NCBI GenBank assembly: GCA_903904755.1
Contig: CAIVDV010000004.1
Location: forward strand, 1-59,668
Source: an uncultured Acidobacteriaceae bacterium
GTDB lineage: Bacteria > Acidobacteriota > Terriglobia > Terriglobales > Acidobacteriaceae
Length of the DNA stretch: 59,668 nucleotides
Direction of reading: 5' to 3'
Made by a program: the position numbers and the translations under genes. Positions 3,136 to 41,315 of this stretch are shown here, one piece after another; the stretch's first letter is position 1; each line of letters begins with the position of its first letter. The notes beneath the pieces were generated by a model. It did not search any database. It was not told the DNA's origin and saw nothing but the letters and a program-made list of their open reading frames with translations.

Positions 3136-3151
3136 TGTGAGGTCCGTCACA
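3136..3151 (+). promoter_or_regulatory. CRP/FNR-family binding site upstream of the cbb3/bc operon
   Basis: TGTGA-GGTCCG-TCACA is an exact match to the CRP core TGTGA-N6-TCACA. A TACGAT hexamer at 3170-3175 (and TAGCTT at 3175-3180) could be the -10. With these the palindrome centre would sit roughly 39-44 bp before transcription start, the class II activator position. The first gene of the operon starts at 3272. Confidence 0.6.
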
Positions 3152-3271
3152 ACCAGTTTTATGGGGCAATACGATAGCTTTCCTCTTTCCAAAAGGAATT
3201 GGAGTGAAACGGTCCATAAGCTCAGCCGAAAGGACTTTCGGCGGGCCGGACCGGGCTGGAAGGGGGCAACG

Positions 3272-3511
3272 ATGGACCTGACTTGGATTGCAATTGCCGC
3301 CAGCCTGTTGATGGGGGGCGGGGGACTGCTGGTTTTTGTCTGGGCCGTCCGCAGCCGCCAGTTCCACAGCTTTGAAGATGTAAAGTTCCAGGTTTTCTGG
3401 TCGGATTTCGAGCAGGCGCCCGCAAATCCGGCAAGCACCACGCAAGACAATTCCGCAAAGAATTCGGCAGTCAAGGAGCAAGGGAATGGGAGCAGCACCA
3501 AAGGCAATTGA
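3272..3511 (+). CDS. ccoS: CcoS-like cbb3 oxidase maturation peptide
   Basis: 79 residues. One N-terminal membrane helix (about 4-25) is followed by [20 protein letters not shown], closely resembling the CcoS pattern F-x-W-A-V-R-S-x-Q-F-D-D-L, and then an Asn/Ser/Lys-rich tail. CcoS helps insert heme/copper into cbb3 oxidase in the inner membrane. The ATG at 3272 follows AGGGGG at 8 nt. A longer frame exists upstream (to 3137) but would cross the regulatory site and has no SD. It overlaps the Rieske gene by 26 nt. Being first in the operon, away from ccoGHI, is unusual. Confidence 0.65.
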
Positions 3512-3968
3512 GCCGGCGGAAACGCAGGTGCCACGCAGGCAGTTTCTGATGTGGCTGAGCAGTGTGGGCGTGGTGGGTTCGGCACTGGCCGCCATCTTTT
3601 CCACCTTCGTTTTCATGAAGCCGAGAGCCACCTATGGCCAGCCCAACCGCTTCCGCATTGGGCGGCCTGAGGAGTTCCCGACCGGTGCCCGCATTGCCAT
3701 TGACACCAAGCGCGTCTGCATTGTGCGTGATGGCGACAAGCTGGCGGCCATTTCAACCACATGCACGCATCTGGGCTGCATTGTTGCGCCGTCGGCTACG
3801 GGCTTCCACTGCCCGTGCCATGGTTCGCAGTTTGATGTGGATGGCAACGTCACCGGCGGGCCTGCACCGAAAGCGCTGCCCTGGTACCTGGTGACGATTA
3901 CGCCGAGCGGCGAGCTGGAAGTGGACAAGGATACAGAAATCCAGATGGGAACCTACCTGAGCGTATGA
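3486..3968 (+). CDS. Rieske [2Fe-2S] protein of a cytochrome bc complex
   Basis: 160 residues. The N terminus carries [20 protein letters not shown], a Tat-like or uncleaved membrane anchor. The C-terminal Rieske fold has both cluster motifs, CTHLGC (about 94-99) and CPCHGS (about 110-115), with two Cys and two His ligands. It would transfer electrons from quinol to the c-type cytochrome on the periplasmic face. It is followed with a 4-nt ATGA overlap by the cytochrome b gene, as expected for a bc module. Confidence 0.95.
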
Positions 3969-5242
3969 GCACGGAAAAGAAATCTCTGTGGAAGGACTTG
4001 ATGGACCTTCCGAAGAATATCTACAGGTCCATCTTCCGCAATCCGCTTCCGGCCAGCGACCGGGGACGGGCGGCAACCAGCTTCACCAACTTCTTCCTGC
4101 ACATTCAACCGGTGCGGGTAAACAAGCGCACGCTGCGGCCAAGCTACACGATGGGCCTGGGGCTGATCAGCTTCTTCCTCTTCGTGATTCTCGCCGTCAC
4201 CGGCGTGCTGCTGATGTTCTACTACGTGCCCTCCACCACGCAGGCCTACGATCGCATGCTGGATTTGCGCAGCTCCGTCGCCTTTGGCGTCATCCTGCGC
4301 AACATGCACCGCTGGGCCGCGCACGCCATGGTGGCGGTGGTCTTCCTGCACATGTGCCGCGTCTTCCTTACCGGCAGCTACAAGGCTCCGCGCGAGTTCA
4401 ACTGGAACATTGGCGTAGGCCTCTTCCTGCTGACGCTTTTCTCCAGCTTTACCGGCTATCTGCTGCCATGGGATCAGTTGGCCTTCTGGGCCATCACGGT
4501 GGGCACCTCCATCGCCGGCTATGCGCCGCTCATCGGCCACCAGTTGCAGTTCCTGCTGCTGGGGGATGCCACCGTCGGCCAGGAAGCCCTGCTGCGCTTC
4601 TACGTGCTGCATGTCGTGGTGCTGCCCATCGCTCTGGTGCTGCTGGTTGCAGTGCATTTCTGGCGCATCCGCAAGGATGGTGGCCTGGCCAGGCCTGAGC
4701 CCAGCGAACTGCCCGCACCTGCCGCTGTTGTTGCGCCCGCGGGTGAGGTGGTTGCTGCTCTTCCGGCACGGCGTTTTGCCATCCAGGGCCTGGTCAAGGG
4801 GCCGCTCGTCAAGGTGGGTACGCTTGACGACGACACTGTCTTCAGTTGGCCCAACCTGCTGATTGCCGAGCTCTTCGTTTTGCTGCTGACCGTTGCCGGG
4901 CTCATGGCGGTTTCGCTCTTCTTCAACGCACCGCTGGAGCATCCCGTCAACGTGATGCATCCGCCCAATCCTGCCAAGGCGCCGTGGTACTTCCTCGGTC
5001 TGCAGGAACAGGTCAGCTACTCCGCATTCTGGGGTGGCGTGGGCGTGCCGGCAATCGAACTTCTGTTGCTCGTTCTTGTTCCGTACATCGACCGCAGTAA
5101 AGAGGGCGTGGGGCGCTGGTTCGCCCGCCAGCGCGTCTGGGCCAACACTCTCTTTCTCACCTTTGTACTTGTGAACATCGTCTTGATCGTGATTGGAACT
5201 TTCTTCCGCGGCGCGAACTGGCAGTTCGTGTCACCGTTCTGA
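3965..5242 (+). CDS. Cytochrome b (N-terminal b and C-terminal subunit IV-like parts fused)
   Basis: 425 residues with about eight membrane helices. The N-terminal half has the heme-b His pairs, around [10 protein letters not shown] / VFLHMCRVF in helix B and FYVLHVV / [11 protein letters not shown] in helix D, with [10 protein letters not shown] between them. A hydrophilic Ala/Pro linker (about 240-265) leads to the second half, where [15 protein letters not shown] matches the subunit IV Qo-site region. The single chain would therefore supply both quinone sites. It sits between the Rieske protein and a multiheme cytochrome c, 12 nt upstream of the latter. Confidence 0.94.
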
Positions 5243-5254
5243 GGAGCTGAGGGT

Positions 5255-7057
5255 ATGCGACTGGCTTTGGCCGTGGTGAGCCTGGTGGTGTTGGTTGGAT
5301 CTGGAGTGGTCATCGTTGACCAGTTCCACAGCCAATGGCAAGACCATCAGAAGGCTTATTTCAATCAGGCACTTGGTTTGGCAAAGACGCCCGCAGAGCG
5401 AGCTGCTCTGGACGGACGTACGCCGCGGCTGGAGCAGGTCATCGCTACCGGCTTCGGCGATGCCCGTGTAGACCGGTGCGAGAGCTGTCATATTGCGTCC
5501 GACGATCCCCGCTTTACGCAGGGAAAGGAACCGCTGCGGACCCATCCCTACTCTGCGGAAATGGGCGACGTGCTGAAGGATGGACGCTGGGAGCGCCGCC
5601 ACAAATTCACTGAGTTTGGCTGCACCGCCTGCCACGACGGGCAGGGCCGCGGACTGGACAAAGCGGATGCCCACGGCGAAGAGACCGAGTGGCCTCGTCC
5701 CATGAGCGGCTACACCACCCAGGCCGACTGGGACAAGAACATCGCGGGCCATCTGAAGGGCAAGGAATTCCTCCAGGCCAACTGCGTCCGCTGCCACGCC
5801 GACAAGGACTTCGCCGGCGCGCCGGAAGTGGCCAAGGGCCGCGCGCTCTTCTTCAAGACCGGCTGCTTCGGCTGCCATCGCATTGAGGGCATTTCGTCGG
5901 GCACACTGGGCCCGGACCTGAGCGAAGAAGGCAAGGAGCGCAAGGTTGATTACCTGTGGGGACACATCGTTGACCCGCGCGCCTACACGCCGACCTCAAT
6001 CATGCCGAAGTTCAAGCTGACGGATGATGAGCGCAAGTCGCTGGTCATCTTCCTGAAGAGCCGCCAGGGCGTGGACTACAGTTCCAGCGCAGTGGCCGGC
6101 TACAAGCTCGCCGGCACCACGAACAAGCCGGTGCCTGAGAGCGCAATCGCAGTGGAGTCAACACTCTCAACCAGCCTCACCAGCGCGGCTCGCGGCGAAA
6201 AGCTGATTGAGGGCTACGCCTGCCTCTCCTGCCACAAACTCGACGACCACGACGGCGGAATTTCGCCCGACCTCAGCCGCGAAGGACTCCTGCGCGATGA
6301 GCAGTGGCTCACGGACCACTTCAAGAATCCGCGCTCGCGCGTGCCCGACTCCGACATGCCTGTCTTCGGCCTGCCTGAGAACGACTACCGCGACATGGCC
6401 GCGTATCTGCTGACGCGCAACTCACCCGCGCCGGCGGCAACGCCAGCAGAAACCTACAAGAACCTCTGCGCCCGCTGCCACGGCGAAAAGGGCGACGGCA
6501 AGGGAATCAACTCCACGTATATTGATCCGGCGCCGCGCGACCTTACGCTGGCCGAGTTCATGGCCAACAAGCCGGAGAGCCGCCTGATCAACTCCATTCA
6601 GAACGGTGTCCCCGGAACGTCGATGCCGCCGTGGAGCAAGGTGCTTACGGCTGACCAGACCAAGGGTGTACTGGACTACGTGTGGGCCAGCTTTGTGAAG
6701 ACTCCGCATCGGCAACTGAAGCCGCGCAAGATTCCTGACGTGAATCCCGTGGCCATGACGCCGGAGTCGATTCACCAGGGCGAAGCCATCTATCTCCAGC
6801 GCTGCACCGGCTGCCATGGTCGCAAGGCCGATGGTCACGGACCCAATTCGCTCGACATCTCGCCGCGCCCGCGCAACCTGCGCAATGCCGCATTTGTGCA
6901 GGCGACATCGGACCGCCGACTGCTTGAGTCGATTACCTACGGCGTGGAAGGAACGGCGATGCCCTCATGGATCGATTACGGACTTTCGCAGAATCAGATT
7001 GGCGACATTCTTAACTACATTCGCAGCTTGAATGCAGAACCAAAGACCGGGAAGTAG
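5255..7057 (+). CDS. Seven-heme cytochrome c of the bc/cbb3 cluster
   Basis: 600 residues. One N-terminal hydrophobic helix (about 3-20) acts as anchor or signal. Seven CxxCH heme sites follow: CESCH (about 75), CTACH (122), CVRCH (176), CFGCH (203), CLSCH (322), CARCH (404) and CTGCH (516). The last two lie in separate mono-heme domains of about 110 residues ending in conserved Met-containing GTSMPPW and GTAMPSW motifs. In position it replaces cytochrome c1 and probably carries electrons from the Rieske protein to the oxidase on the periplasmic side. It lies 33 nt before ccoN. Confidence 0.92.
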   Translation: MRLALAVVSLVVLVGSGVVIVDQFHSQWQDHQKAYFNQALGLAKTPAERAALDGRTPRLEQVIATGFGDARVDRCESCHIASDDPRFTQGKEPLRTHPYSAEMGDVLKDGRWERRHKFTEFGCTACHDGQGRGLDKADAHGEETEWPRPMSGYTTQADWDKNIAGHLKGKEFLQANCVRCHADKDFAGAPEVAKGRALFFKTGCFGCHRIEGISSGTLGPDLSEEGKERKVDYLWGHIVDPRAYTPTSIMPKFKLTDDERKSLVIFLKSRQGVDYSSSAVAGYKLAGTTNKPVPESAIAVESTLSTSLTSAARGEKLIEGYACLSCHKLDDHDGGISPDLSREGLLRDEQWLTDHFKNPRSRVPDSDMPVFGLPENDYRDMAAYLLTRNSPAPAATPAETYKNLCARCHGEKGDGKGINSTYIDPAPRDLTLAEFMANKPESRLINSIQNGVPGTSMPPWSKVLTADQTKGVLDYVWASFVKTPHRQLKPRKIPDVNPVAMTPESIHQGEAIYLQRCTGCHGRKADGHGPNSLDISPRPRNLRNAAFVQATSDRRLLESITYGVEGTAMPSWIDYGLSQNQIGDILNYIRSLNAEPKTGK

Positions 7058-7090
7058 ACAGAAAAAGTAGAAGCACGTTAGGAGGGTTCC

Positions 7091-8503
7091 ATGGCAACAC
7101 AGCAAGGCAGTGCATCCGCTGCAGCCCTGGCAAATCAGGACATTCACCAGGACACAACGGTGAAGTGGTTCCTGCTTGGAGCAGTTGGATACTTCGCCAT
7201 TGTCGGCATCATCGCGCTTATCATCGCGGCAAAGTTTGTATGGCCGCAATTCCTCGGCACGATTCCTTACTTTACTTACGGACGCATGCGCCCCCTGCAT
7301 GTCAACGGCATGTTGTTTGGCTGGCTGCTGGCTGCGGACATGGGGCTCGCCTACTACTTCGTTCCGCGCCTCTGCGGCGTAAAGCTGTGGAGCGAAAAGC
7401 TCGGCGTGGCCACCTCAATCCTTTGGAACATCATCATCATCAGCGCCATCTTCACGCTGCTGGGTGGCTACCAGAAGGGCTTTGAATACGCCGATCTGCC
7501 CACACCCGTTGCGGTGCTGGTCGTCATCGCGTGGGTCATGTTTGGCTTCAATATCTTCGCCACCATCCTCACCCGCAAATACAACCAGATGTACGTCTCC
7601 ACCTGGTACCTGATGGGCACCATCCTGTGGACGGCCTTCGTTTACCTCACCGGCAACTTCGCAACTCTGCTGCCGGGCATCACGGGCGTGAACCAGGCCA
7701 ACCTCAACTGGATGTACACGCACAACGCTGTCGGCCTTATCTTCACCCCGGCCGGCCTCGCCGTTGCGTACTACTTCATTCCGCGCGCATCCAACAGCCC
7801 GCTCTACAGCCACAAGCTGTCGATGATCGGCTTCTGGTCGCTGGCTTTTGTCTATGTCTGGACCGGCGCGCATCACATGCTTCACGGACCCATCTCGCAG
7901 TGGCTGCAGACCATCTCCATCGTCTTCTCCGTGATGCTTCTCATCCCGGTGTGGGCAGTGGTCTATAACTTCATCGCAACCATGAAAGGCCAGTGGCATC
8001 AACTCGGCGACAACGTCTCGCTCAAGTTCCTGATGTCGGGCACCATCTTCTATCTGCTCACCTGCTTCCAGGGGCCCATGCACAGCCTGCGCTCCGTAAA
8101 CGCCATCGTCTCCAAGACCGACTGGATTCCGGGTCACGCGCACATGGCGGTGCTGGGCACCTTCTCGTTCCTGGCCATGGCCGGCGTGTACTACGTTATC
8201 CCGCGCATCTTCAAGACCACTCTGCATTCTGAATCGCTGGCGAACTGGAGCTTCTGGCTCTTCCTCATCGGCGGCCTGGGCATGTTCACCGCGCTGTGGC
8301 TCGGTGGCTTCTGGCAGGGCTGGCAGTGGAACAACCCGTCGATTCCGTTCATCGATACGGTCGTCGCGTTGCAGCCTGTCTGGATGGTGCGCTTCCTCTC
8401 AGGAATCATCATCTTCCTGGGTATCGTGCTCTTCATGTTCAATATTGTTTCGACCGCGATCAGTGGCGGACGCAATGCGTCTGAAGCCACGGCGCGCTCG
8501 TAG
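7091..8503 (+). CDS. ccoN: cbb3-type cytochrome c oxidase subunit I
   Basis: 470 residues with about 12 membrane helices. Heme and copper ligands are visible: RPLHVNGMLFG (low-spin heme b), MYTHNAVGL and GAHHMLHGP (CuB region, the latter giving two adjacent His) and IPGHAHMAVLG (heme His pair). Residues KYNQMYVSTWY are typical of CcoN. It catalyses O2 reduction at the high-spin heme b3/CuB site with high O2 affinity. The ATG follows GGAGGG at 5 nt. ccoO follows after 15 nt. Confidence 0.96.
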   Translation: MATQQGSASAAALANQDIHQDTTVKWFLLGAVGYFAIVGIIALIIAAKFVWPQFLGTIPYFTYGRMRPLHVNGMLFGWLLAADMGLAYYFVPRLCGVKLWSEKLGVATSILWNIIIISAIFTLLGGYQKGFEYADLPTPVAVLVVIAWVMFGFNIFATILTRKYNQMYVSTWYLMGTILWTAFVYLTGNFATLLPGITGVNQANLNWMYTHNAVGLIFTPAGLAVAYYFIPRASNSPLYSHKLSMIGFWSLAFVYVWTGAHHMLHGPISQWLQTISIVFSVMLLIPVWAVVYNFIATMKGQWHQLGDNVSLKFLMSGTIFYLLTCFQGPMHSLRSVNAIVSKTDWIPGHAHMAVLGTFSFLAMAGVYYVIPRIFKTTLHSESLANWSFWLFLIGGLGMFTALWLGGFWQGWQWNNPSIPFIDTVVALQPVWMVRFLSGIIIFLGIVLFMFNIVSTAISGGRNASEATARS

Positions 8504-8518
8504 GCGGAGGGAGAATTC

Positions 8519-9088
8519 ATGCTCGGCAAAACCGACAAAAACGCATCCTGGTTTGTGGTCGCAGCCCTTGGACTGTTCTTCATCGGCGGCCTGCTGACGA
8601 CCGTGGCTCCGCCCCTGCTCGACAAGAGCTGGTCGAAGCCATTTGAGAATCACGATCCCGCCAAGGGACCAACCGGCAAACTCGTCGCCTACACCGACCA
8701 GGAGATGCGCGGGTATCGCATCTACATTCGCGAGGGCTGCAAGTACTGCCATACGCAGCAGACACGCACGCTGCTGAGCGACACCAAGCGCTCCGGCTGG
8801 AAGGGCGTTGATTCGCCCGTCTCCACTCCCGATGAGTTCGTCTACGACTGGCGTCAAACCTTTGGCACCAAGCGTACCGGCCCGGATCTCTCGCGCATCG
8901 GCGGCAAGTACAACAAGCAGTGGCACAAGGCGCACTTCAACAATCCACGCGACCTGGTACCCGGCTCCATCATGCCTCCGTTCCCGTGGATTGCCAACAA
9001 CCCGCAGGAACTGGACGATCTCGTCGCCTACCTGCAAACCCGCGGCCGCGCCAAGGATTGGCGTCCCGATAACGACTACGAGCAGTGA
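8519..9088 (+). CDS. ccoO: cbb3-type oxidase monoheme subunit
   Basis: 189 residues. An N-terminal membrane anchor (about 10-32) is followed by a single heme site CKYCHTQQT (about 74-82) in a YIREGCKYCH context diagnostic of CcoO, and a distal Met in PGSIMPPFPW. It transfers electrons from soluble or bc-linked cytochrome c to CcoN. GGAGGGAG lies 6 nt before the ATG. Confidence 0.95.
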   Translation: MLGKTDKNASWFVVAALGLFFIGGLLTTVAPPLLDKSWSKPFENHDPAKGPTGKLVAYTDQEMRGYRIYIREGCKYCHTQQTRTLLSDTKRSGWKGVDSPVSTPDEFVYDWRQTFGTKRTGPDLSRIGGKYNKQWHKAHFNNPRDLVPGSIMPPFPWIANNPQELDDLVAYLQTRGRAKDWRPDNDYEQ

Positions 9089-9614: not shown

Positions 9615-11573
9615 ATGGCGCAACCGAGCGGGCAATTCGATAGAATCGGCGGGGCCGATTACTGGATGGAGATGGTCAAGTGCCAGCACGCGTGTCCGGT
9701 GCATACCGACGCGTGCGGCTACGTCACGGCGATTGCCGAGGGGCGCGATGAAGACGCCTATCGCATCGCACGCGCCACCAATCCCTTTGCATCCATCTGC
9801 GGGCGTGTTTGCGGTGCGCCGTGCGAAGCCAACTGCCGCCGCGGCAGCCTGGACGAGCCGGTCTCCATCCGCGCCCTCAAGCGCTTCGTCACCAGCCAGT
9901 TCGGCCCGGAGAGCGGAGACGCAAGCCACTATCGCGCGGGTGCAAACCTGAACATGCTGCCGCCCAACCGTGGCGAGTTCGAGAAGGTCGCAGTCATCGG
10001 CGCAGGCGTTGCCGGCATGACCGTTGCGCACGACCTGACCATGCTTGGTTACAAGGTCACCGTCTTTGAGGCCTATCACAAACCCGGTGGCATGCTCACC
10101 GCAGGCGTGCCGGTCTTCCGGCTCCCGCGCGAGCTGGTGATGGCGGAAATCGACGCCATCGTATCGCTTGGCGTGGAACTGAGATGCAACCAGCGCCTGG
10201 GCCGCGACTTCACCATCCAGAGCCTGCGCGCTGACGGCTACAAGGCAATCTTCCTTGGCGTGGGATTGCCCAAAGGACGCAAGCTCGACCTGCCCGGCAA
10301 CGACCTCGGCGGCGTTTACGATGGCATGGATTTTCTGCGCGCTTTCAACGAAGGCAATCCGCTTCCCGTCGGCCGCAAAATCGTCGTCATCGGTGGCGGC
10401 AATGTTGCCTACGACGTCGCCCGCTCTGCCGTGCGCCCGCTGGAGGCGATGAGCAATGAAGAATCCGCCGCCGATATACAGCGCGGCGAGTCCGTTGCCT
10501 ACGATGTTGCGCGCTCGGCCATGCGTCTCTCCGGCGAGCGCGAGGTGCACGTTGTGTGCCTTGAAAGCCGCGCCGAAATGCCCGCAGATGAAATCGAAGT
10601 CACCGAAGGCGCAGAAGAAGGGCTGGTCCTGCACAACAGCCGCGGTCCGCGCGCCATCGTCGGCGTGGACGGCAAAGTTACCGGTCTCAAGACCGTGGAA
10701 TGCACCGCCGTCTTTGATGCCAATCACCGCTTCAGCCCCACCTTCAACGAAGAGAACGTGGATGTGATTGAGGCCGACACTGTGATCTTCTCCATCGGAC
10801 AATCGTCGGATCTTTCTTTCCTGCAGCCGGGCGATGGTGTTGAGTCTGTTCGCGGCCTCATCAAGGTTGATCCCGATACCTACCAGACCACCGCGCCCGA
10901 CGTCTTCGCGTGCGGCGATATCGCGCACGGTCCGCGTCTTTTCATCCACGCCATCCGCTCTGCGCAAGTTGCCGCGCGCTCCATGCACGACTTCCTGCGC
11001 GGCTCGCATACGCAGGTCACCATTGAAACAAGCTGGTCGCCTGCCGCCTACACCATGCGCGAAAACTGGGACCAGTTGAAGCGCCACCATCCCCCCGCGG
11101 TTGCTCCGCAAACGCGTGCCACATCGCTGGCCATTGTTGAGGAGAATTACCCCGAGCAGGAAGCCCGCGCGCAGGCCTCGCGCTGCCTCCGATGCAACGT
11201 TAATACCGTTTTTGACACCGGCATGTGCGTGGCCTGCACGGGTTGCGTTGATGTTTGCCCGGAGAGCCTGATTCGCATGGTTGGCGTGGCCGAGATGTGC
11301 CGCACACCGGAAGGGCTCGATTGGGTCGCAGGGCTTGCCGGCGTTCCCTCTGCAGTCCTGCAGGATGCCGGGACGGAAGAGCTGAACGCGATGGGCAGCG
11401 TGATGCTGAAGGACGAAAGCACCTGCATCCGGTGCGGCATGTGTGCCTCGCGTTGCCCTTCGCGCGCCATCACCATGCAGCAGTTCCACTACGCGCGCAA
11501 GTGCGTGACCGTACCAGGAACCAACCCGCGGCTGCTGCACAGCATTGCACCCGCAGCGGGAGGAACGCTGTAG
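9615..11573 (+). CDS. GltD-like NAD(P)-dependent flavoprotein with C-terminal ferredoxin domain
   Basis: 652 residues. The N terminus has the Cys-rich 4Fe-4S region of glutamate-synthase small-subunit-type proteins (CQHACPVHTDAC, CGRVCGAPCEANC). FAD binding is at VAVIGAGVAGMT (about 128-139) and the NAD(P) site at VVIGGGNVAYD (about 258). The C-terminal region has two ferredoxin motifs, CVACTGCVDVCP and CIRCGMCASRCP. It likely moves electrons between NAD(P)H and a low-potential or quinone-linked partner in the cytoplasm. Just after the NAD(P) motif, VAYDVARSAVR recurs as VAYDVARSAMR about 40 residues later. Its location inside the oxidase operon suggests a redox link, but the partner is unknown. 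Confidence 0.82.
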   Translation: MAQPSGQFDRIGGADYWMEMVKCQHACPVHTDACGYVTAIAEGRDEDAYRIARATNPFASICGRVCGAPCEANCRRGSLDEPVSIRALKRFVTSQFGPESGDASHYRAGANLNMLPPNRGEFEKVAVIGAGVAGMTVAHDLTMLGYKVTVFEAYHKPGGMLTAGVPVFRLPRELVMAEIDAIVSLGVELRCNQRLGRDFTIQSLRADGYKAIFLGVGLPKGRKLDLPGNDLGGVYDGMDFLRAFNEGNPLPVGRKIVVIGGGNVAYDVARSAVRPLEAMSNEESAADIQRGESVAYDVARSAMRLSGEREVHVVCLESRAEMPADEIEVTEGAEEGLVLHNSRGPRAIVGVDGKVTGLKTVECTAVFDANHRFSPTFNEENVDVIEADTVIFSIGQSSDLSFLQPGDGVESVRGLIKVDPDTYQTTAPDVFACGDIAHGPRLFIHAIRSAQVAARSMHDFLRGSHTQVTIETSWSPAAYTMRENWDQLKRHHPPAVAPQTRATSLAIVEENYPEQEARAQASRCLRCNVNTVFDTGMCVACTGCVDVCPESLIRMVGVAEMCRTPEGLDWVAGLAGVPSAVLQDAGTEELNAMGSVMLKDESTCIRCGMCASRCPSRAITMQQFHYARKCVTVPGTNPRLLHSIAPAAGGTL

Positions 11574-28983: not shown

Positions 28984-29060
28984 CCGGCGGGTCTGCGCTC
29001 TCTTCGGAGCGCGGGCCGGCTTCACAACCGGCAGCATTCTGGCTGCCACTTTTCATCCAT

Positions 29061-32278: not shown

Positions 32279-32339
32279 GACACAACCCGCGCCCGTCCCT
32301 AATCATGGTTCCATGCTCGCTATTCGAAAGGGGGGCTTG

Positions 32340-34505
32340 ATGCTGCCCCGCGCTGTCATTTGCCCGCTCCTGCTTGTCGCTGGACTCCTGGGACCCGCTT
32401 TGTCAGTGAGCGGGCAGCAGTCGCAGCCCACCCCCGCCAAGCCCGCCATCCCCACCCGCACTGACACCGTCATCGTCACCGCCGACATCACCCGCATGGA
32501 TGTCGAAGCTCCCGACCCCGCCGTCAAAGTCTTTGCCTCAGAAGATTTAATGGATGCCAATCCCGGCCGACCCGGTGCCCCCATCTCCATCCCTGGCTAC
32601 CCGGTTGAGACTGCCTCCAGCGGCATCAAAGCTCCCCAGTACTTCGCGCCCGGCGTAGCCGGCGATCACGGCGAGCCCATCGCCCAATATCTCCAGGTCG
32701 GCAGTTTCCTCCTCCCCAACAACCTTTCCGCCAACGCCCACGGCAACGGCTATGCCGATCCCAACCTCTTCATCGCCCACGCCATTGAGAGCGTTCAGGT
32801 CGATGGCGGCGCATTCAACGTCAGGGAAGGGAATCACGCTCTCAACCTCGCCGCCATCTATGGCCTGCGCTCCCATCTCGAGCCCTTCCTCACCCTCACC
32901 ACTGACAACCGCGACCTGACCGCAACCGCCGGCCTCAGCCCCTCTGCCCGCTCCTGGCTGGCCGCGGAGTTCTCCTACGGCAACGGCTTCCTCGACCGCC
33001 TGGAGCACCGCCGCCAGCTCAAGCTCAACTACGGCGCAGCATGGCAGCTTCGCCAGCACGCCATTACCCTGGTCGGCATCGGCTACCTGGGCTACGGCTA
33101 TCTGGCCGGCCTGCAGCCCATCTGCGGCTTCAACGCCATCGATGCCGCCGCCGGCTGGCGCACCCTTCCCGACACCATTGACCCCCGCCAGCGCGACCAA
33201 ACCCACACCGCCTTGGTCGCCATCAACGACAACTGGCGCCCCGCTCCAACCCGGCAAATCCAGCTTTCTGCCTTCTTCCGCAGCTACAATCTCTCGCTCT
33301 CGTCCGACTTCGGCCTCGGCCTCATCCGCCAGAGCGAGTTCCGCACCGTCGGCGGTGCCAGCGCCGCCTGGCTCGACGACCTCTCCCGCAGCTTCACCCT
33401 CATGGCCGGCCTCGACTACCAGCGCGAGGCTCCCCGGCGGGTCAATCTCGACCACTACAACTTCTTTGATCCCGCCCGCCCCGCCCTCTACGGGCCCTTC
33501 CACCGCATCGCCGGCAACGATGTCACCATCGCCCCCATCTCCCCCTATCTCGCCGGCCAGGGCACCCTCGGCGCGCACCTGCGCTACTACCTCGGCTGGC
33601 GTCACGACCAAATCTCCATCCAGAACCGCGACCGGCTCATCCCAGCCAACTCCTTCACCCGCTGGGCCGGCGTTGACTCCCCCAAAGCCACGCTCACCCT
33701 CACCCCCGGACCCAACCGGAAGCTACCCCAGCTCTCCGCCAGCTTTGGCAAATCCTATTTCACCGAGGATCCCCGCATCGGCCTCGCCACCAACCCGGCG
33801 CTCCGTCCCCAAGCCATCGAAACCGCGCGCTCCTACCAGCTCGTCGTCAGCGAGGCCCTCCACTCCACCGACCTCAAGCTGACAGTCGGCCACGAAACCC
33901 AAACCGCCGAGTACGGCAAAATCGACGCCGACCAGGGTCTGCAAACCAACCAGGGCCCCGGCCGCATTCTCTTCCTCGCCGCCACTCTCCGTCAGCGCTT
34001 CCCGGCCGGCTCCTTCCAGGCCACATGGGAACAGGCCGATGCCCGCCTCACCCGCGAGCCCACCGCCACCATCACCCCGGAAGCCCCCCGCCAAATCGCC
34101 GACATTTCGGCCACCTGGCAGAAGCTTCCCTTCCGCCTCCAGTCCAAGGCGGAATTCGAATTCGTGGGAAAAAAGGTACTCGGCACAGGCTGCGACTCCA
34201 CCCTGCCCGATGGCGGCGCTGCCTACTGTGTCGGCAAGCCCAACACCGAGTTCCGCTTCGCGTTTGCGCGCAGCTTCGTCAGTGAACGGCTCTCCATCGG
34301 TTTGCAGGGATTGGCCGCCCAGGGCTGGACCGGCCAGACCACAGAGAATTTTGCTTCCGCTTCGGTCTACGCTCCGGGTGCGGTTGGCCTCGGTCCAGAT
34401 GGGCTGGTTAAAGCGGATCCGGTCGCGGAGGCGGTGGGCGTGCGCATCCCCAGCTACCTCAGCCTCACCCTCAACTGGCACATCGGCAGGGGCGCGGCGA
34501 GATAG
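32340..34505 (+). CDS. TonB-dependent outer-membrane receptor-like protein
   Basis: 721 residues from the ATG at 32340, which has AAGGGGGG 6 nt upstream and a signal peptide (LPRAVICPLLLVAGLLG, ending near SVSGQQ). After a Pro/Thr-rich linker with the TonB-box-like DTVIVTADITR comes a plug-like region containing PGVAGDHGEPIAQYLQVG. Alternating hydrophobic strands follow to a C terminus of LSLTLNWHIG, as in outer-membrane barrels. No carboxypeptidase-like domain precedes the plug. It is convergent with nikR and flanked by nickel-enzyme genes, so nickel-chelate uptake is a reasonable inference but not shown by the sequence itself. Confidence 0.7.
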   Translation: MLPRAVICPLLLVAGLLGPALSVSGQQSQPTPAKPAIPTRTDTVIVTADITRMDVEAPDPAVKVFASEDLMDANPGRPGAPISIPGYPVETASSGIKAPQYFAPGVAGDHGEPIAQYLQVGSFLLPNNLSANAHGNGYADPNLFIAHAIESVQVDGGAFNVREGNHALNLAAIYGLRSHLEPFLTLTTDNRDLTATAGLSPSARSWLAAEFSYGNGFLDRLEHRRQLKLNYGAAWQLRQHAITLVGIGYLGYGYLAGLQPICGFNAIDAAAGWRTLPDTIDPRQRDQTHTALVAINDNWRPAPTRQIQLSAFFRSYNLSLSSDFGLGLIRQSEFRTVGGASAAWLDDLSRSFTLMAGLDYQREAPRRVNLDHYNFFDPARPALYGPFHRIAGNDVTIAPISPYLAGQGTLGAHLRYYLGWRHDQISIQNRDRLIPANSFTRWAGVDSPKATLTLTPGPNRKLPQLSASFGKSYFTEDPRIGLATNPALRPQAIETARSYQLVVSEALHSTDLKLTVGHETQTAEYGKIDADQGLQTNQGPGRILFLAATLRQRFPAGSFQATWEQADARLTREPTATITPEAPRQIADISATWQKLPFRLQSKAEFEFVGKKVLGTGCDSTLPDGGAAYCVGKPNTEFRFAFARSFVSERLSIGLQGLAAQGWTGQTTENFASASVYAPGAVGLGPDGLVKADPVAEAVGVRIPSYLSLTLNWHIGRGAAR

Positions 34506-34514: not shown

Positions 34515-34952
34515 CTAGTGCGTATGCACGTGGTTGTGGTTCTTGGCCACGCCCGCGCTCGACAGAACCAGCTTGCCCAGTTCCACCCCGCGCAGCGCCA
34601 GAATATGCTCGGCAATCGCCTTCAGCTCATGGCTCCGCCCCTGCAGAATAATCACTTCCAGGCAGTAGTGGTGGTCCAGATGCACATGCGTCGTCGCCAT
34701 CACCCGGGCACCGTTCTGGTGCTGGGCTTCCGTCAGCCGCTGTGTCAGGTTCGGTACGTGGTGGTCATAGACCAGCGTCAGCGTGCCCACCACGGGCTCA
34801 TTGGCATCCACCACATCGGCCAGCAGCGCATCGCGAATCAGGTCGCGCACAGCCTCTGAGCGGTTGCGGTATCCACGGCGGGCAATCAGTTCATCAAACC
34901 CCTGAAGCAGACTTTGGTCCAGGGAGATTCCAGTGCGGCTCAGGTCGGCCAT
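34515..34952 (-). CDS. nikR: Nickel-responsive regulator NikR
   Basis: 145 residues. An N-terminal ribbon-helix-helix (GISLDQSLLQGFDELI, RNRSEAVRDLIRD) precedes the ACT-like nickel domain, with ligands His64/65 in YDHH, His89 and His91 in THVHLD and Cys97 in HHYCLEV. The C-terminal tail is His-rich (HNHVHTH). It represses or activates nickel-uptake and hydrogenase genes in response to Ni(II). The start ATG at 34952 has AGAGGAA upstream; in-frame codons to 35000 are ignored. It is the last gene of the hox operon, 29 nt after hoxW. Confidence 0.95.
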   Translation of the reverse strand: MADLSRTGISLDQSLLQGFDELIARRGYRNRSEAVRDLIRDALLADVVDANEPVVGTLTLVYDHHVPNLTQRLTEAQHQNGARVMATTHVHLDHHYCLEVIILQGRSHELKAIAEHILALRGVELGKLVLSSAGVAKNHNHVHTH

Positions 34953-35450: not shown

Positions 35451-36872
35451 TTACCGCCGGACGGTGCTCAGCAGCTCCCGGTTCGGGCCCAGCAGCCGGA
35501 TCTCCAGCGGCATCTTGCCATAGGCATGGGTTGAGCAGCTCAGGCACGGGTCAAAGGTGCGAATCATCGCCTCGCAGCGATTCAGCATCCCCTGATCCAG
35601 CTCGTTGCCGCGCACATACGCCTTGGCCACCTGCAGCAGACCCCGGTTCATGGCGTGGTTGTTCTGGCCGGTTGCAATTACCAGGTTCGACCACCGCATC
35701 AGCCCGTTCACGTCCACCTTGTAATGGTGCATCAGCGTTCCGCGCGGAGCCTCACTGAAGCCCGAGCCTTCCAGCCGATTCACACCGGCGGTTGCCCGCA
35801 CATGCGGCGAAAGAATATCCGCGTCGTTCAGAATCTCTTCCACCTTCTCGATGCCGTACAGAATCTCAACCAGCCGCGCATGATGGAAGTGGAACGAACT
35901 CTGCACCGGCCCGGACTCAAGCTGACGGAACTCAGCCAGCTCCTTGTCCGCTTCCGGCGTGCCCATGTGCTTGCAGATGTTCAACCGGGCCAGCGGCCCC
36001 ACGCGATAGCTGCCCTCAGGGTAGCCAAGCGCCTTGTAATAGCTGAACTTCGTAAAGCTGTACGGCTCCACCGCTTCGCCAAAGACGTTGTCAAAGTCCT
36101 CCGCCGTAATCCCTTCGGCAATTGCCTTGCCCTTGGGATCAATCAGCGTCAGCGTTCCATCGCTCAGCTCAAACATGCCGTCTTCGCCCACCATGCCCAG
36201 AAAGGCCGAGGGCTCGCTGGCAAAGGTCGCGATTTCTCCAGGGAAGTTGGGCAGAATCGACTTGTACCAGTCCAGGGCCAGACGAATGTTCGTCCGCGCC
36301 TCCGGCAGCATGGCCAGAATCTTCTCCCGCTTCTCTGCCGTCAGTGCGTCCGTCACGCCGCCGGCCACAATCCATCCGGTGTGGATGCGCTTGGTGCCGA
36401 GCAACTCGATGATCGTCTGCCCAAACCGGCGCAGGCCAATGCCGGCCTTGCCGATAGCCGGGCTCGCCGCCGCCACGCCAAAAATGTGCCGTGTCGCCGG
36501 GTCGGCGTCCATGCCCAGCAGCAGGTCGGGCGAGCTCAGGTAGAAAAAGCTCAGCGCGTGCGACTGAATCATCTGCGCCAGGTTGGCAATCGAGCGAAGC
36601 TGCTTGGCCGTGTACGGAATCTGCACCGCCATAATCGCTTCCCCGGCCTTGGCCGAGGCCAGCAGGTGGCTTACCGGGCAAATGCCGCATACGCGCGCCA
36701 TCAGGCTGGGCATCTCGTAGAAGGGACGCCCCTCGCTGAATTTCTCAAAGCCGCGCACCTGCGTTACCGTAAACTGCGCGTCCTCAACAACGCCGGCGTC
36801 GTTCAGGTGGAGGGTGATCTTGCCGTGCCCCTCAAGCCGTGTAACCGGATCAATGGTAATCGTCTGGCTCAT
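35451..36872 (-). CDS. hoxH: NAD-linked [NiFe] hydrogenase large subunit
   Basis: 473 residues. Nickel motifs are RVCGICP (Cys62, Cys65) and DPCLSCSTH (Cys443, Cys446, His449), with a 24-residue C-terminal tail to be cleaved. TRLEGHGKIT is near the start. The short length and sequence class fit group 3d (HoxH). It oxidises or produces H2 in the cytoplasm together with HoxY. It follows hoxY after 10 nt with an AGGAGGT-like SD. Confidence 0.95.
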   Translation of the reverse strand: MSQTITIDPVTRLEGHGKITLHLNDAGVVEDAQFTVTQVRGFEKFSEGRPFYEMPSLMARVCGICPVSHLLASAKAGEAIMAVQIPYTAKQLRSIANLAQMIQSHALSFFYLSSPDLLLGMDADPATRHIFGVAAASPAIGKAGIGLRRFGQTIIELLGTKRIHTGWIVAGGVTDALTAEKREKILAMLPEARTNIRLALDWYKSILPNFPGEIATFASEPSAFLGMVGEDGMFELSDGTLTLIDPKGKAIAEGITAEDFDNVFGEAVEPYSFTKFSYYKALGYPEGSYRVGPLARLNICKHMGTPEADKELAEFRQLESGPVQSSFHFHHARLVEILYGIEKVEEILNDADILSPHVRATAGVNRLEGSGFSEAPRGTLMHHYKVDVNGLMRWSNLVIATGQNNHAMNRGLLQVAKAYVRGNELDQGMLNRCEAMIRTFDPCLSCSTHAYGKMPLEIRLLGPNRELLSTVRR

Positions 36873-36882
36873 GATGACCTCC

Positions 36883-37416
36883 TTAGGCTCCGAACCGGGT
36901 TAGGGCGGAAACGTCAACCGGTTTTCCCTCAATCAGGCCGGTCAGGAACGCGTGGAAGGTATCTGCGGCCGGCGGGCAGCCGGGCAAATAGTAGTCCACC
37001 TTCACAAACTCCTGAATCGGGCGCACCGTCTTCAGCAGAGTCGGCACGTAAATCGTCGGCAACTGCTGTTGTGCGCTGGCGTTCTCAAAGTACGCGCGGT
37101 CGGTCACTTCCTTGGCGCTGTACGGATTGCGCATGGCGGGAACGTTGCCGGTAATGGCGCAGTCGCCCATGGCAATCAGTACCCCGGTGTGGGCGCGAAT
37201 CTTCTTGATCTTCGCCTCATCATCGGTCGAGGAAATCGCGCCTTCCACCAGCGCAAAATCCACGTGCTCCGGGTACGTCTTCAAATCCACCAGCGGGCTG
37301 TAGATCAGGTCGAAGTGCTCGGCCAGCTCCACCAGCCGCTCGTCCATGTCCAGGAATGACATGTGGCAGCCCGAGCAGCCATCCAGCCATACGGTTGCGA
37401 GAGTATGTTTGCTCAT
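36883..37416 (-). CDS. hoxY: NAD-linked [NiFe] hydrogenase small subunit
   Basis: 177 residues, the short small-subunit form with only the proximal [4Fe-4S] cluster: [10 protein letters not shown] (Cys14, Cys17), AMGDCAITG and LPGCPPAAD. There is no Tat signal and no medial or distal ligands, so it is cytoplasmic. The proximal motif is the normal CSGC, without the extra cysteines seen in HyaA. ATGA overlap with hoxU. Confidence 0.95.
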
Positions 37417-38132
37417 TGCTGCTCCCTCATCATCTGCAGTGCAGGTAGAAACTCAGGATACTTCGGATGCGGTGAACCGACTTTGCTCTTGTCAAACAGA
37501 GCGCCCGTCGGGCACACCTGCACACACTTGCCGCAGCGCGTGCAGGCTGATTCGCCCCACGGCTGATGCAGGTCCGTGATCACCATGGAGTCGATGCCCC
37601 GGCCCATCACGTCCCAGATATGCGCGCCTTCCACCTCGGCGCAAACCCTGACGCAGCGCGTGCACAGGATGCACCGGTTCTGGTCCAGCGTAAAGCGCTC
37701 GTGCGATCCGTCAATCTCCAGCTTCGGGTTGCGGTACGGCAGCCGGATGTGCGTCAGCCCCTGCTCCTGGCCCAGGGTCTGCAGTTCGCAGTGCCCGTTG
37801 GCCACGCAGACCGAACACACATGGTTGCGCTCGGCAAACAGCAGCTCCAGAATCGTCCTCCGGTGCTTCTTCAGCCGGTCTGAGCTGGTGGTCACCACCT
37901 GCCCCTCTTCCACCGTCGCCACGCAGGCCGGGAAGAGCTTGGGCGTGCCGGCAATCTCCACCATGCACAGCCGGCACGCGCCGACATCGCTCAACCCATC
38001 CAGGTGACACAGCGTCGGAATGGCGATGCTGTTCTCCCTCGCCACCTCAAGAATCGTCTGTCCTGCGCGGGCAGAGACTTCCTTGCCGTCGATTGTGAGT
38101 GTTTTGATATCCACTGCAGGTGCGGGGCTCAT
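37413..38132 (-). CDS. hoxU: Hydrogenase diaphorase Fe-S subunit
   Basis: 239 residues. The N-terminal [2Fe-2S] domain ([15 protein letters not shown]), the NuoG-like [12 protein letters not shown] motif and two ferredoxin motifs ([23 protein letters not shown]) appear in order, as in HoxU/NuoG N termini. It conducts electrons between HoxF and HoxY. The ATG at 38132 overlaps the hoxF stop (ATGA). Confidence 0.94.
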
Positions 38133-39781
38133 GCGGTCACCTCCACGGCCTTGCTCATGGCGCAAACTCCCGCCGAGCAGTGCTTGTGTTCAATGTGCTC
38201 GATATACTCGTTGCGGAAGTACCGCAGCGTGCTCAGCACCGGGTTGGGAGCGGTCTGGCCCAGTCCGCAAAGGCTCGTCTCCTTGATCGTCGCGGAGAGA
38301 TCCACCAGCAGGTCCAGATCGTCCATCGTGCCCTCGCCCTCGCAGATGCGCGTCAGCAGCGTGTAAAGCTGCGCCGTGCCCGCGCGGCAGGGAATGCACT
38401 TGCCGCAGGATTCGGTCATGCAGAACTCGATGAAGAACTTCGCCACATTCACCATGCAGCTGGTGTCATCCATCACGATCATGCCGCCGGAGCCCATCAT
38501 CGAGCCCACTTCAATCAGCGACTCGTAGCTCACGTTCAGGTCCAGCAGGTGCGCCGGAATGCAGCCGCCCGAAGGTCCGCCCGTCTGCACAGCCTTGAAG
38601 GTGTGGCCGTCGGGTACGCCGCCGCCAATGCCTTCAATAATCTGCCGCAGCGGAATGCCCATCGGCACTTCCACCAGTCCGGTGTTGGCAATCTTGCCGG
38701 TAATCGCAAAGACCTTGGTGCCCTTGCTCTTGCCGATGCCGATGCCCGAGAACCACTCCCCGCCCTTGCGCAGAATGGGAGGCACGTTGGCGAAGGTCTC
38801 AACGTTGTTGATCAGCGTCGGCTTGCCCCAGATGCCGCTCACCGCCGGATACGGAGGCCTCGGCTTCGGAGTGCCGCGCCGGCCTTCAATGCTGGCGATC
38901 AGCGCTGTCTCTTCGCCGCAGACAAACGCGCCCGCGCCGAGCCGAATCTCCACATCAAAGCTGAAGTCGGAGTTGCAGATGTTGTTGCCCAGCAGCCCCT
39001 TGCGGCGTGCGTCGCGGATGGCAGCCGTCAAACGGCTGACCGCCAGCGGATACTCGGCGCGCACGTAGATGAAGCCACGGCTCGCGCCCACTGCGTAGGC
39101 CGCCAGCGCCATGCCTTCCAGCACCCGCTGCGGGTCGCTTTCCAGCACGCTGCGGTCCATGAATGCGCCAGGATCGCCCTCGTCGCCGTTGCACACGACG
39201 TACTTGGGATCGCCCACAGCCTTGGCCACCGTCGACCACTTCAGGCCGGTCGGATAGCCGCCGCCCCCGCGTCCGCGCAGGCCGCTCTTCATGATCTGCT
39301 CAATCACTTCAGACGGGGTCATCTCCGTCACCGCAGTCACCAGGCCCTCGTAGCCGTCCCGTGCGATGTAGTCTTCAATCTTCTCCGGGTCAATGTGGCC
39401 GCTGTTTTCCAGCACCACATGCACCTGCGACTCAAAGTGCTCGCGCAGATCGCACTGCAGCTCCGCCACCGGAGCGCCACCCAGCGCAGCTGCAATCTTC
39501 TCAGCGTGCTCGGGGCCCACATGGTCGTACACAATCTCGTGCTCGCTGCCCTTGTTGGTCAGCAGCAGCAGCGGCCCGGCAGCGCACAGGCCCATGCAGC
39601 CCGTACGGCGCACAAACGCGTTCTTCCCGCTCGCCGCAACCGCCTTGGTCAGCGCATCCTTGATGGTGTCGCTGTGCTGGCTCAGGCAGCCGGTGCCCAT
39701 GCAGATGTTGATTTCGTGGTCGAACTTCGCTTGTTCGTCACGGGTACTCGCGGCAATCTGTTTCAGTTCTTCCAGGTTCAT
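38129..39781 (-). CDS. hoxF: Hydrogenase diaphorase NADH/FMN-binding subunit
   Basis: 550 residues. The N-terminal thioredoxin-like [2Fe-2S] part has CMGTGC and CMGLCAAGP. The FMN/NADH domain has [16 protein letters not shown] and the acidic [12 protein letters not shown], and the C-terminal [4Fe-4S] has [13 protein letters not shown]. It carries the NAD(H) site of the Hox complex. The ATG at 39781 overlaps the hoxE stop (ATGA). Confidence 0.95.
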
Positions 39782-40275
39782 GCCACTTCCCACCTTTCCA
39801 GTTGTGCAATGACCTGTTCACTGGTCAGTTGCCCCACCAGTTCGCCATCCACCAGCACCACCGGCGCGCGGCCGCAGGCGCCCACGCAGCGGGCCGTCAT
39901 CAGGCTGATCTCGCCGTCCGGCGTCGTCTTGCCCTGCGCTATGCCGAGATGCTTTTCGCTGTCTGCCAGCAGTTTGTCCGTGCCCTTGATGTAGCAGGCC
40001 GTACCGGTGCAGATGGTGAGCGTGTGCTTGCCGGGTGGCTTCAGGCTGAAGTGGTGATAGAACGTCACCACCCCATACGCCTGGCTCAGCGGCACGCGCA
40101 GACTCTTGGCAATGAATTTGATAGCCACGTCGTCCAGATAGCCGAAAGAGGACTGGGCCGTATGAAGGGTTTCAATCAACGCGTGGCGGGCAAATCCATG
40201 GCGTCGCATGGTGCCGTTGACAATCTTCCAGCGCTTGTCGTCAGAGGGTAGGGGTGGTGGTGCCAGGCTGATCAC
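39778..40275 (-). CDS. hoxE: Hydrogenase/NuoE-like [2Fe-2S] subunit
   Basis: 165 residues. The thioredoxin-like [2Fe-2S] fold has CTGTAC and CVGAC ligand pairs, as in NuoE/HoxE. GTG 40275 is chosen because AGGAGG lies 5 nt before it; upstream in-frame ATGs (40326, 40392) lack SDs and would overlap the CRP-like site. It is the first gene of hoxEFUYHW-nikR. Confidence 0.9.
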   Translation of the reverse strand: MISLAPPPLPSDDKRWKIVNGTMRRHGFARHALIETLHTAQSSFGYLDDVAIKFIAKSLRVPLSQAYGVVTFYHHFSLKPPGKHTLTICTGTACYIKGTDKLLADSEKHLGIAQGKTTPDGEISLMTARCVGACGRAPVVLVDGELVGQLTSEQVIAQLERWEVA

Positions 40276-40338
40276 GGGGCCTCCTATTTGGGGTGCGTCG
40301 CCTTGCTTCCTTTCTAGCCGCTCCATCGTAAGACAGTC

Positions 40339-40354
40339 GGTGATAGTCGTCACA
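40339..40354 (-). promoter_or_regulatory. CRP/FNR-family binding site upstream of the hox operon
   Basis: Read on the minus strand, TGTGA-CGACTA-TCACC has one mismatch to TGTGA-N6-TCACA. TAGAAA at 40316-40311 is a possible -10, which puts the centre about 42 bp upstream of the start. The flanking segment 40380-40440 is AT-rich. hoxE starts at 40275. Confidence 0.55.
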
Positions 40355-40488
40355 AGATGAACCGTATCCCGAAAGGGAATACCACTATGCAAAACGGGAA
40401 AACGCTATCTCATTGATTTTTAAGGACTAATTTGGTCCGATTCGAACCGGGAATCGACGGGAAGTGACTGAGCAGAAAGCTCTTGCAG

Positions 40489-41232
40489 CTACTGCAGGCT
40501 GGGCAATAGCGATGACGATCCAGCCAGGAAAACTATTCCTATCCCGCAGCTGTAAATCGCACCGCCCCACGCAAAAATCCGGTAAAACCCCGGGCTCAGG
40601 CGCTTCATCCCAAACAGTCCGGCCAGGCTCGCCGTCATCAGCGCATTCATCAGCACCAGTCCGGCGGCAAAGGCACCCAGCCCCCACAGCCCTTCCACCG
40701 TGCCGCCCAGCTTTGCCGTCAGCAGAAACAGCGCCACCTGGCTCGGGGTCTCTGCGCCGATGCCGTGCAGCATCCCAATGGCAAAGACGCTGGGGCCGTT
40801 GTAATTCCACGCAAACAGGGCTGGCCGCTCCCGGTTCGGTTCAAACAGCGCCAGGAACCGCCAACAAAGATGCCTCGCAAGGTTTATGCCGGCCGCTATC
40901 CGGCTCTGCATCCGCTCCGGGTGCGCATGCGGATGCAGCATCCCGGCCACCACCGCTATCCCCAGCAGAATCAGCGTTGCGCCAATCAGCCGCTCGGTCA
41001 GTTGGTCCACCCAGGCCGGCATCGGCAGGTGCAGGGAAATCACCACCACGCCCATGGCGCACACCATAAATGCGTGCCCCAGCGCGTACAGCACACCCAG
41101 CCGCACCGCCTTCAGCTTGCCCGGCTGCACCGCCGTAATGTCGCTGATTGCCGCCAAATGGTCGTAGTCGAACCCGTGCCGCAATCCAAGCACCAGACAC
41201 GCCGTCAATGCTGCTTCCAGCTTCCAGTTCAC
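40489..41232 (-). CDS. NiCoT-family nickel/cobalt transporter
   Basis: 247 residues with about six to seven membrane helices. The signature HX4DH metal motif is present as RHGFDYDHLAAI (about 19-30), with LGHAFMV and the helix GMLHGIGAETPSQ typical of the family. A His-rich loop (HPHAHPER) lies near residue 101. It imports Ni2+ for hydrogenase assembly. It is divergent from hypC and sits between the hyp and hox operons, all consistent with nickel supply. Confidence 0.9.
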   Translation of the reverse strand: MNWKLEAALTACLVLGLRHGFDYDHLAAISDITAVQPGKLKAVRLGVLYALGHAFMVCAMGVVVISLHLPMPAWVDQLTERLIGATLILLGIAVVAGMLHPHAHPERMQSRIAAGINLARHLCWRFLALFEPNRERPALFAWNYNGPSVFAIGMLHGIGAETPSQVALFLLTAKLGGTVEGLWGLGAFAAGLVLMNALMTASLAGLFGMKRLSPGFYRIFAWGGAIYSCGIGIVFLAGSSSLLPSLQ

Positions 41233-41299
41233 GCTCGGTGCCGCTCCTTCGTGGTCGCTTCTCTATCGTACAGCTTCGCTAAAAACTCTTTGCCCTCGG

Positions 41300-41315
41300 A
41301 GTGACCTGTGTCACA
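41300..41315. promoter_or_regulatory. CRP/FNR-family binding site between the NiCoT gene and hypC
   Basis: AGTGA-CCTGTG-TCACA has one mismatch to TGTGA-N6-TCACA. On the plus strand TAACAT at 41337-41342 is a good -10, so a start near 41349 puts the centre exactly at -41.5, the class II activator position. On the minus strand TACGAT (41270-41265) could serve the NiCoT gene at a longer distance. hypC starts at 41364. Confidence 0.6.

Follow-up and report, generated by a model that had tools for sequence, protein, structure and literature searches.

Five palindromes of the form TGTGA-N6-TCACA, lying upstream of cbb3 oxidase, hydrogenase, hydrogenase maturation and TonB-type receptor genes on a 59,668-nucleotide stretch from an uncultured Acidobacteriaceae bacterium (genome G000, contig C4, positions 1-59668; 'the window' below means this whole stretch), probably serve as operators for a single global activator from the Crp/Fnr superfamily. 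Its candidate gene is G000:C48:9012-9725, on another contig, and the product, here called the C48 protein, would be an oxygen- or redox-sensing regulator of FNR type with CRP-like DNA specificity. A first-pass annotation of the window had proposed that one CRP/FNR-family activator couples respiration with hydrogenase synthesis. Motif, conservation, promoter phasing and the C48 recognition helix support this proposal, with the amendment that the regulator looks FNR-type and not like the cyclic AMP (cAMP)-dependent CRP. What has been computed is the motif and its placement between genes, how far it is conserved, the geometry of the promoters, which genes adjoin the sites, and how well helix and cysteines are kept among homologues of the candidate. 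The five sites are as follows:

Site 1, 3136-3151, no strand: TGTGAGGTCCGTCACA, perfect match, upstream of ccoS-Rieske-cytb-cytc-ccoNO
Site 2, 22024-22039, no strand: CGTGATATAGCTCACA, one mismatch, upstream of hyaA
Site 3, 32263-32278, no strand: TGTGATTCTTGTCACC, one mismatch, upstream of the TonB-type receptor gene
Site 4, 40339-40354, no strand: GGTGATAGTCGTCACA, one mismatch, upstream of hoxE
Site 5, 41300-41315, no strand: AGTGACCTGTGTCACA, one mismatch, between the NicO gene and hypC

All five were found where they had first been reported, with the same mismatch counts, and their placement in promoter regions was borne out: each is intergenic, with an unbroken GTGA-N6-TCAC core. The centres lie approximately 128 bp upstream of the ccoS start at 3272 (Site 1) and 130 bp upstream of the hyaA start at 22162 (Site 2), both starts having been picked by eye, and approximately 70 bp upstream of the TonB-type receptor start at 32340 (Site 3), 72 bp upstream of the hoxE start at 40275 on the minus strand (Site 4) and 56 bp upstream of the hypC start at 41364 (Site 5). 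With at most one mismatch allowed, six such palindromes occur in the window; the mean over shuffled sequences was 1.13, and none of 100 shuffles reached six. The sixth (10065-10080), which had not been listed before, was set aside because it is inside a coding open reading frame and its GTGA core is broken.

The whole genome (4.22 Mb in 83 contigs, 97.5% complete) was searched with the same motif, taking the reversed pattern as a control. TGTGA-N6-TCACA with at most one mismatch was found at 61 sites, compared to 23 for the control. For the GTGA-N6-TCACA form, the excess was 43 oriented matches (26 + 17) against 3 (1 + 2), corresponding to 34 distinct sites, all of which keep the outer T, the outer A or both, as the search demanded. 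Gene starts were assigned by a hexamer-based gene caller, which was first trained on the window and then again on the fetched stretches. By these starts, 33 of the 34 sites are intergenic, although the fetched DNA (264 kb) is 83% coding (binomial p ~2e-24); sites of equal density within coding DNA, which would have spoken against an operator, were thus not observed. At 8 of the 34 sites, hya and hox included, the open frame of the adjoining gene extends back across the site, so that intergenic status there hinges on the choice of start; 25 of the 34 are intergenic whatever start is chosen. The window represents 1.4% of the genome and holds 5 of the 34 sites (p ~1e-4, calculated post hoc).

At class II promoters, CRP and FNR sites are centred near -41.5, with the -10 box about 29 nt away. 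Candidate -10 boxes of the window are found at comparable distances:

41338-41343, plus strand: TAACAT, candidate -10 box of hypC, starting 30 nt from the Site 5 centre
3175-3180: TAGCTT, cbb3, 31 nt from the Site 1 centre
22062-22067: TACCTT, hya, 29-31 nt from the Site 2 centre
32300-32305: TAATCA, TonB receptor, 29-31 nt from the Site 3 centre
40316-40311, minus strand: TAGAAA, hox, 29-31 nt from the Site 4 centre

At hyp, the centre had been placed exactly 41.5 bp before a predicted transcription start; the TAACAT box starts 30 nt from the centre, and which base is taken as the start decides between -41.5 and -42.5. A similar geometry had been suggested for the TonB receptor, hya and hox, and all four sites other than hyp do have a TA at 29-31 nt. 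In relatives, a TAnnnT box starting 29 or 30 nt from the site centre was present at 46 of 136 non-redundant directed sites, compared to a mean of 1.5 and a maximum of 7 at other pairs of offsets. These other offsets served as the null, since a mirrored control is unsuitable when sites are counted in both directions. By group, the box was found at 13/29 hyp, 19/50 hya, 9/28 hox, 4/27 regulator and 1/2 cbb3 sites. In the genome itself, 7 of 36 directed sites had TAnnnT at 28-31 nt (null mean 1.2, maximum 4). By predicted promoter geometry, then, the sites sit at a class II activator position, with the centre near -41.5.

Conservation was assessed by footprinting with a matrix built from the 34 sites (score of at least 14), the counts taking in the window's own locus. 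Many genomes of the family keep the palindromes ahead of hya, hox and hyp, as had been anticipated for genuine operators. For hyaA, where all family loci were scored, 22 of 26 had a site upstream, none inside the gene and none downstream. For hoxF, 26 of the 30 fetched loci were scored, four at 54-55% identity being excluded; the site was upstream in 21 of them, inside in none and downstream in one. For hypD, among the best 30 of 59 positive genomes, 17 loci had an upstream site, none had one inside and 3 had one downstream. The hypD matches of G098, G085, G135, G078, G133, G141, G119 and G114 contain one in-frame stop, which probably reflects an alignment overrunning the end of the gene. A same-genus genome, G011 (loci L120/L316), encodes a HyaA protein 86% identical to that of the window behind a promoter without a site at a score of at least 12, and its hox promoter keeps the site.

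For the cbb3/bc operon, 14 of the 30 fetched cytochrome b loci were scored, 16 partial matches being excluded. In G110, where the cytochrome b shows 80% identity, the operon has a site at the matching position, and the cbb3 site was thereby footprinted in two loci only, the window and G110. Cytochrome b paralogues at 49-55% identity had an upstream site in 0 of 12 cases (one with only 455 bp of upstream DNA), and one had a site inside the gene; these paralogues were taken as belonging to other operons and were therefore not scored as failures of the cbb3 site. No homologue of the TonB receptor was found in the nine stretches examined from relatives, six of which hold hox or hyp, and conservation of its site is not established.

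All 80 hyaB loci retrieved on named contigs were examined for the box. Among loci with a full promoter, the site was present in 16 of 20 with a HyaB identity of at least 78% (a group labelled Acidobacteria, Acidobacteriota, Acidobacteriales or Acidobacteriaceae), mostly near one position, compared to 3 of 46 with a more distant HyaB, all three from Acidobacteriota. This contrast indicates that the predicted palindrome switch is a feature of the Acidobacteriaceae or a near group.

Could the palindromes of the window be chance matches? Chance alone would give roughly one such match in a window; against this stand the genome-wide excess, the intergenic placement, the conservation and the promoter phasing, and the probability of this explanation is negligible. 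Chance is refuted for the hya, hox and hyp sites, and might account for the TonB site alone.

The first-pass annotation had confined the sites to promoters of H2-oxidation, nickel or cbb3 genes. Hydrogenase and cbb3 genes do carry them, but the set is broader. Thirty proteins adjoining the other sites were scanned with Pfam. On the side of respiration and redox, the neighbours include cytochrome bd subunit I (cydA), with a radical-SAM protein gene divergent to it, several multihaem cytochromes and a membrane ferredoxin/polyferredoxin. A universal stress protein (usp), delta-aminolevulinate dehydratase (hemB), an Fe-S biosynthesis protein and a lone protein with a cyclic nucleotide (cNMP) domain were also found, as were, for carbon metabolism and transport, phosphofructokinase (PFK), GAPDH, phosphoketolase, L-lactate permease and a cation efflux protein. 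Several sites lie between divergent genes, so that the regulated gene is not fixed there. Taken as a whole, the set is weighted to respiration, haem, Fe-S and central carbon, and looks FNR-like.

No regulator of this kind had been seen in the window, and indeed the three proteins of the genome that pass the HTH_Crp_2 cut-off are all encoded on contigs other than C4. The search for CRP/FNR homologues yielded one with a fitting recognition helix, the C48 protein. It belongs to the Crp/Fnr superfamily (cNMP-type beta-roll PF00027, 67.3 bits; HTH_Crp_2 PF13545, 75.2 bits; both above cut-off), and its helix, TSRETVTRLL, aligns with CSRETVGRIL in CRP and LTVETISRLL in FNR. The CRP-like R-E-x3-R pattern is found in this protein alone among the three. 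Homologues were collected as the best locus from each of 55 genomes, paralogues without loci being excluded, and the pattern was invariant in all 55. At a threshold of E <=1e-30, a homologue was present in 105 of 120 genomes of the family: in all 24 hya-positive genomes, compared to 81 of the 96 others (Fisher p 0.03).

The cysteines of the C48 protein are likewise conserved. C14, C17 and C65 are cysteine in 54 of 55 homologues and are jointly lost in one (L081), while C26 is cysteine in 50 of 55, with four of the five exceptions carrying a cysteine at the column of FNR C29. The residue nearest to FNR C122 is C113, which is three residues off in the alignment and is cysteine in only 30 of 55; the alignment thus shows no fourth ligand at the C122 position of E. 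coli FNR, and C65 lies elsewhere, in the beta-roll. The predicted sensor design is unusual for an FNR.

The same alignment bears on a second explanation, a classical cAMP-CRP (GlxR-like) regulon, in which the box would answer cAMP or carbon status and H2 oxidation and respiration would be just some of many energy genes. The box is identical to that of CRP and GlxR, TGTGA-N6-TCACA, the helix has the same R-E-x3-R residues as E. coli CRP, and PFK, GAPDH, lactate permease and glycosyl hydrolases are found among the site neighbours. Furthermore, the best PDB sequence matches of the C48 protein are the Crp/Fnr regulators 4cyd, 3r6s and 3d0s, which we take to be cAMP-type GlxR/Cmr proteins, ahead of FNR (9qly, 7.7e-13). 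However, the residues by which CRP contacts cAMP are not kept in the 55 homologues: R82 is replaced by H or Y, S83 by E in 50 of 55, T127 by V or A in 50 of 55, and S128 mostly by F or C. A search of the genome for class III cyclases at E 0.001 came out negative (the control was positive in 5/14, and class I was not searched), and it is not evident what a cAMP sensor would do with a conserved CxxC-x8-C motif and C65. A cAMP-CRP regulon is quite improbable, and was rejected as the leading explanation on these grounds.

Base composition of the sites is informative about a third candidate, the NADH/NAD+ sensor Rex, whose box TTGTGAA-N4-TTCACAA contains TGTGA-N6-TCACA. Rex usually acts as a repressor, whereas the phasing observed here is that of a class II activator. 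Position 6 of a Rex box has to be A and position 11 has to be T; each of these bases occurs in 3% of the 34 symmetrised sites, and position 6 is C in 53%. The resemblance of Rex boxes to the sites (PMC2883068) and the attribution of the low-oxygen stress response of Acidobacterium capsulatum to an NADH/NAD+ imbalance (PMC11636273) speak for Rex, but it was rejected on base composition and is very unlikely. A further explanation retains the superfamily and changes the protein: the sites would be bound by one of two regulators on contig C74 or by a regulator in the missing 2.5% of the assembly. Two more Crp/Fnr proteins are indeed encoded and the assembly is incomplete; however, the C74 helices (TTRSRVSFF), with T-R-S-R-V-S-F, lack the E and the second R of CRP, and it is the C48 family that adjoins the motif in relatives, the surroundings of C74-type genes not having been scanned. 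We consider another Crp/Fnr binder unlikely.

From sequence comparison, we infer the C48 protein to be the binder and to hold a cluster, oxygen to be the signal and activation to be the outcome. Under low oxygen or reducing conditions, an Fe-S cluster would assemble on four cysteines: C14, C17, C26 and most probably C65. The cluster-bearing dimer would bind GTGA-N6-TCAC through an R-E-x3-R helix resembling that of E. coli CRP and, positioned about 41.5 or 42.5 bp ahead of the start, would activate transcription as a class II activator. The cbb3 oxidase, cytochrome bd, multihaem cytochromes and both hydrogenases with their maturation genes would thus be switched on together as a low-oxygen programme, which probably includes nickel uptake.

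Comparison with known systems helps to situate this proposal. E. coli FNR controls a low-oxygen gene set with the -41.5 class II geometry, as is proposed for the acidobacterium. The C48 protein shares with it the Crp/Fnr fold and N-terminal cysteines that align with C20 and C23, the third lying three residues beyond C29. It differs in the helix, R-E-x3-R, whereas FNR reads TTGAT-N4-ATCAA by means of E209, S212 and R213 (PMC4505428), and in having C65 in place of a conserved cysteine near C122. The sites conform to GTGA-N6-TCAC and not to this FNR box, although the TTGAT box itself was not searched for. In Bacillus, the Fnr box is TGTGA-N6-TCACA, and the [4Fe-4S] FNR there has ligands other than those of E. 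coli, as is proposed here for the C48 cluster. The B. subtilis ligands are three C-terminal cysteines and an aspartate (PMC3520743), unlike the N-terminal cysteines and C65 of the C48 protein. The closest parallel in gene content is FnrN of Rhizobium leguminosarum UPM791, which controls hypBFCDE and fixNOQP in low oxygen (PMC11784457); there too, one FNR-type regulator couples hydrogenase maturation with a cbb3 oxidase. FnrN recognises the anaerobox TTGA-N6-TCAA, however, and in the acidobacterium the promoters of the structural genes, hya and hox, also carry the box. Hydrogenases and oxidases of acidobacteria have been catalogued by Eichorst et al. (PMC5900883). A full-text search of the open-licence PMC literature returned no paper titled on an acidobacterial FNR or Crp/Fnr regulon. 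The proposal can be tested directly, since it names a regulator candidate, a box with scores and the promoters concerned; the relocated cysteine, if true, would represent an additional cluster architecture for the FNR family.

Several observations weigh against an FNR-type activator acting through these sites. Some neighbours are off the oxygen theme (MutS, a ribosomal S1-type protein, SAICAR synthetase, DAHP synthase and glycosyl hydrolases), and no Pfam family was assigned to 4 of the 30 proteins. Sites are lacking upstream of 13 of the 30 hypD loci (from the best 30 of 59 positive genomes) and of four hyaA loci, namely G011, G112, one of the two G075 copies and one of G016; the G016 locus has no upstream DNA, and that of G112 has a weaker site. 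The order-level relatives G027 and G035 encode R-E-x3-R homologues, and had 0 and 1 motif matches where the control had 4 and 3; the motif thus cannot be predicted from the helix alone. Flanking sites were found at 0 of the 15 closest homologues of the C48 gene (at least 69% identity, its own locus included). According to passages of PMC8407424, cbb3 transcripts of A. capsulatum fall as oxygen falls, which is the opposite of a simple FNR switch, while cydA rises, and in Edaphobacter sp. TAA 166 cydA was undetected at every oxygen level. The cbb3 box may therefore need a further signal, such as starvation, or may be absent in the A. capsulatum strain. In low oxygen, some uspA genes of A. capsulatum are up (PMC11636273). 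The word 'hydrogenase' is absent from the main texts of both papers.

Sites flanking the regulator gene were examined in the homologue set. A site was found within 500 bp upstream or 200 bp downstream of 29 of the 55 homologues: in the first batch 11/30 upstream and 8/30 downstream (threshold 12.5), in the second 3/25 upstream and 15/25 downstream (threshold 14). Autoregulation of the C48 gene was discarded, since it fails in the close orthologues, and it is accordingly not seen in the window's own lineage. A survey of the downstream gene covered 29 of the 55 loci, mostly those with sites, the genes being named by eye and sensor domains by BLAST. Genes behind downstream sites often resembled usp, cydA, ScdA-type Fe-S repair or multihaem cytochrome genes, or encoded a sensor domain lacking the helix-turn-helix (HTH).

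Such an HTH-less copy directly 3' of the regulator, with the same box ahead, was seen in 6 of the 29 loci (L072, L074, L075, L302, L304 and L305). In L072, the copy retains the N-terminal cysteines along with a VFMLC motif resembling the C65 region, and L074 is a weaker match. In the genome itself, the lone cNMP-domain protein on contig C8 (L031:3472-3906, minus strand) has 144 residues, no HTH and no cysteines, with GTGA-N6-TCAC 106 bp upstream; it is a possible feedback partner of the regulator. More speculatively, and with considerable doubt, the Acidobacteriaceae might possess a distinct FNR class that combines CRP-type specificity, three N-terminal cysteines and the beta-roll C65 with an HTH-less feedback partner behind the same box. 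Such a partner could give inactive heterodimers and define the oxygen threshold at which H2 is used.

The genes and operons of the window on which the sites bear are listed below, hox names having been assigned from domain content and gene order:

3272-3511, plus strand: ccoS, FixS/CcoS match weak, above cut-off (NCBIfam/Pfam)
3272-9088, plus strand: cbb3/bc operon, with Rieske 3486, cytochrome b 3965, multi-domain cytochrome c 5255, ccoN 7091 and ccoO 8519 (NCBIfam/Pfam)
22162-26195, plus strand: membrane-bound uptake [NiFe] hydrogenase operon, with hyaA 22162-23259, hyaB 23289-25004, cytochrome b 25025-25744 and maturation protease 25644-26195 (Pfam)
32340-34505, plus strand: TonB-dependent receptor-like protein, weak Pfam match (24.2 bits, cut-off 27)
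34515-34952, minus strand: NikR-type nickel regulator (Pfam NikR_C and RHH_1)
35451-40275, minus strand: bidirectional-type hydrogenase hoxEFUYH, with hoxE 39778-40275, hoxF 38129-39781, hoxU 37413-38132, hoxY 36883-37416 and hoxH 35451-36872 (Pfam, gene calls)
40489-41232, minus strand: NicO-type nickel/cobalt transporter (Pfam NicO), divergent to hypC
41364-47437, plus strand: hyp maturation operon, with hypC 41364, hypD 41684, hypE 42814, hypB 44430 and hypF 45146 (Pfam, gene calls)
44087-44455, plus strand: small gene within the hyp operon, hypA from position alone, not searched

The closest solved structures of the hya large subunit are 3myr and Hydrogenase-1 chains. A nickel role of the TonB-type receptor is suggested solely by the adjoining NikR gene. 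A tRNA-Arg (tct) at 2797-2873 lies directly ahead of the cbb3 promoter region. After the hya operon, at 26377-32124, are a membrane H+-pyrophosphatase and a pyruvate phosphate dikinase-type gene, which form a pyrophosphate (PPi)-linked energy pair between the hydrogenase and TonB genes.

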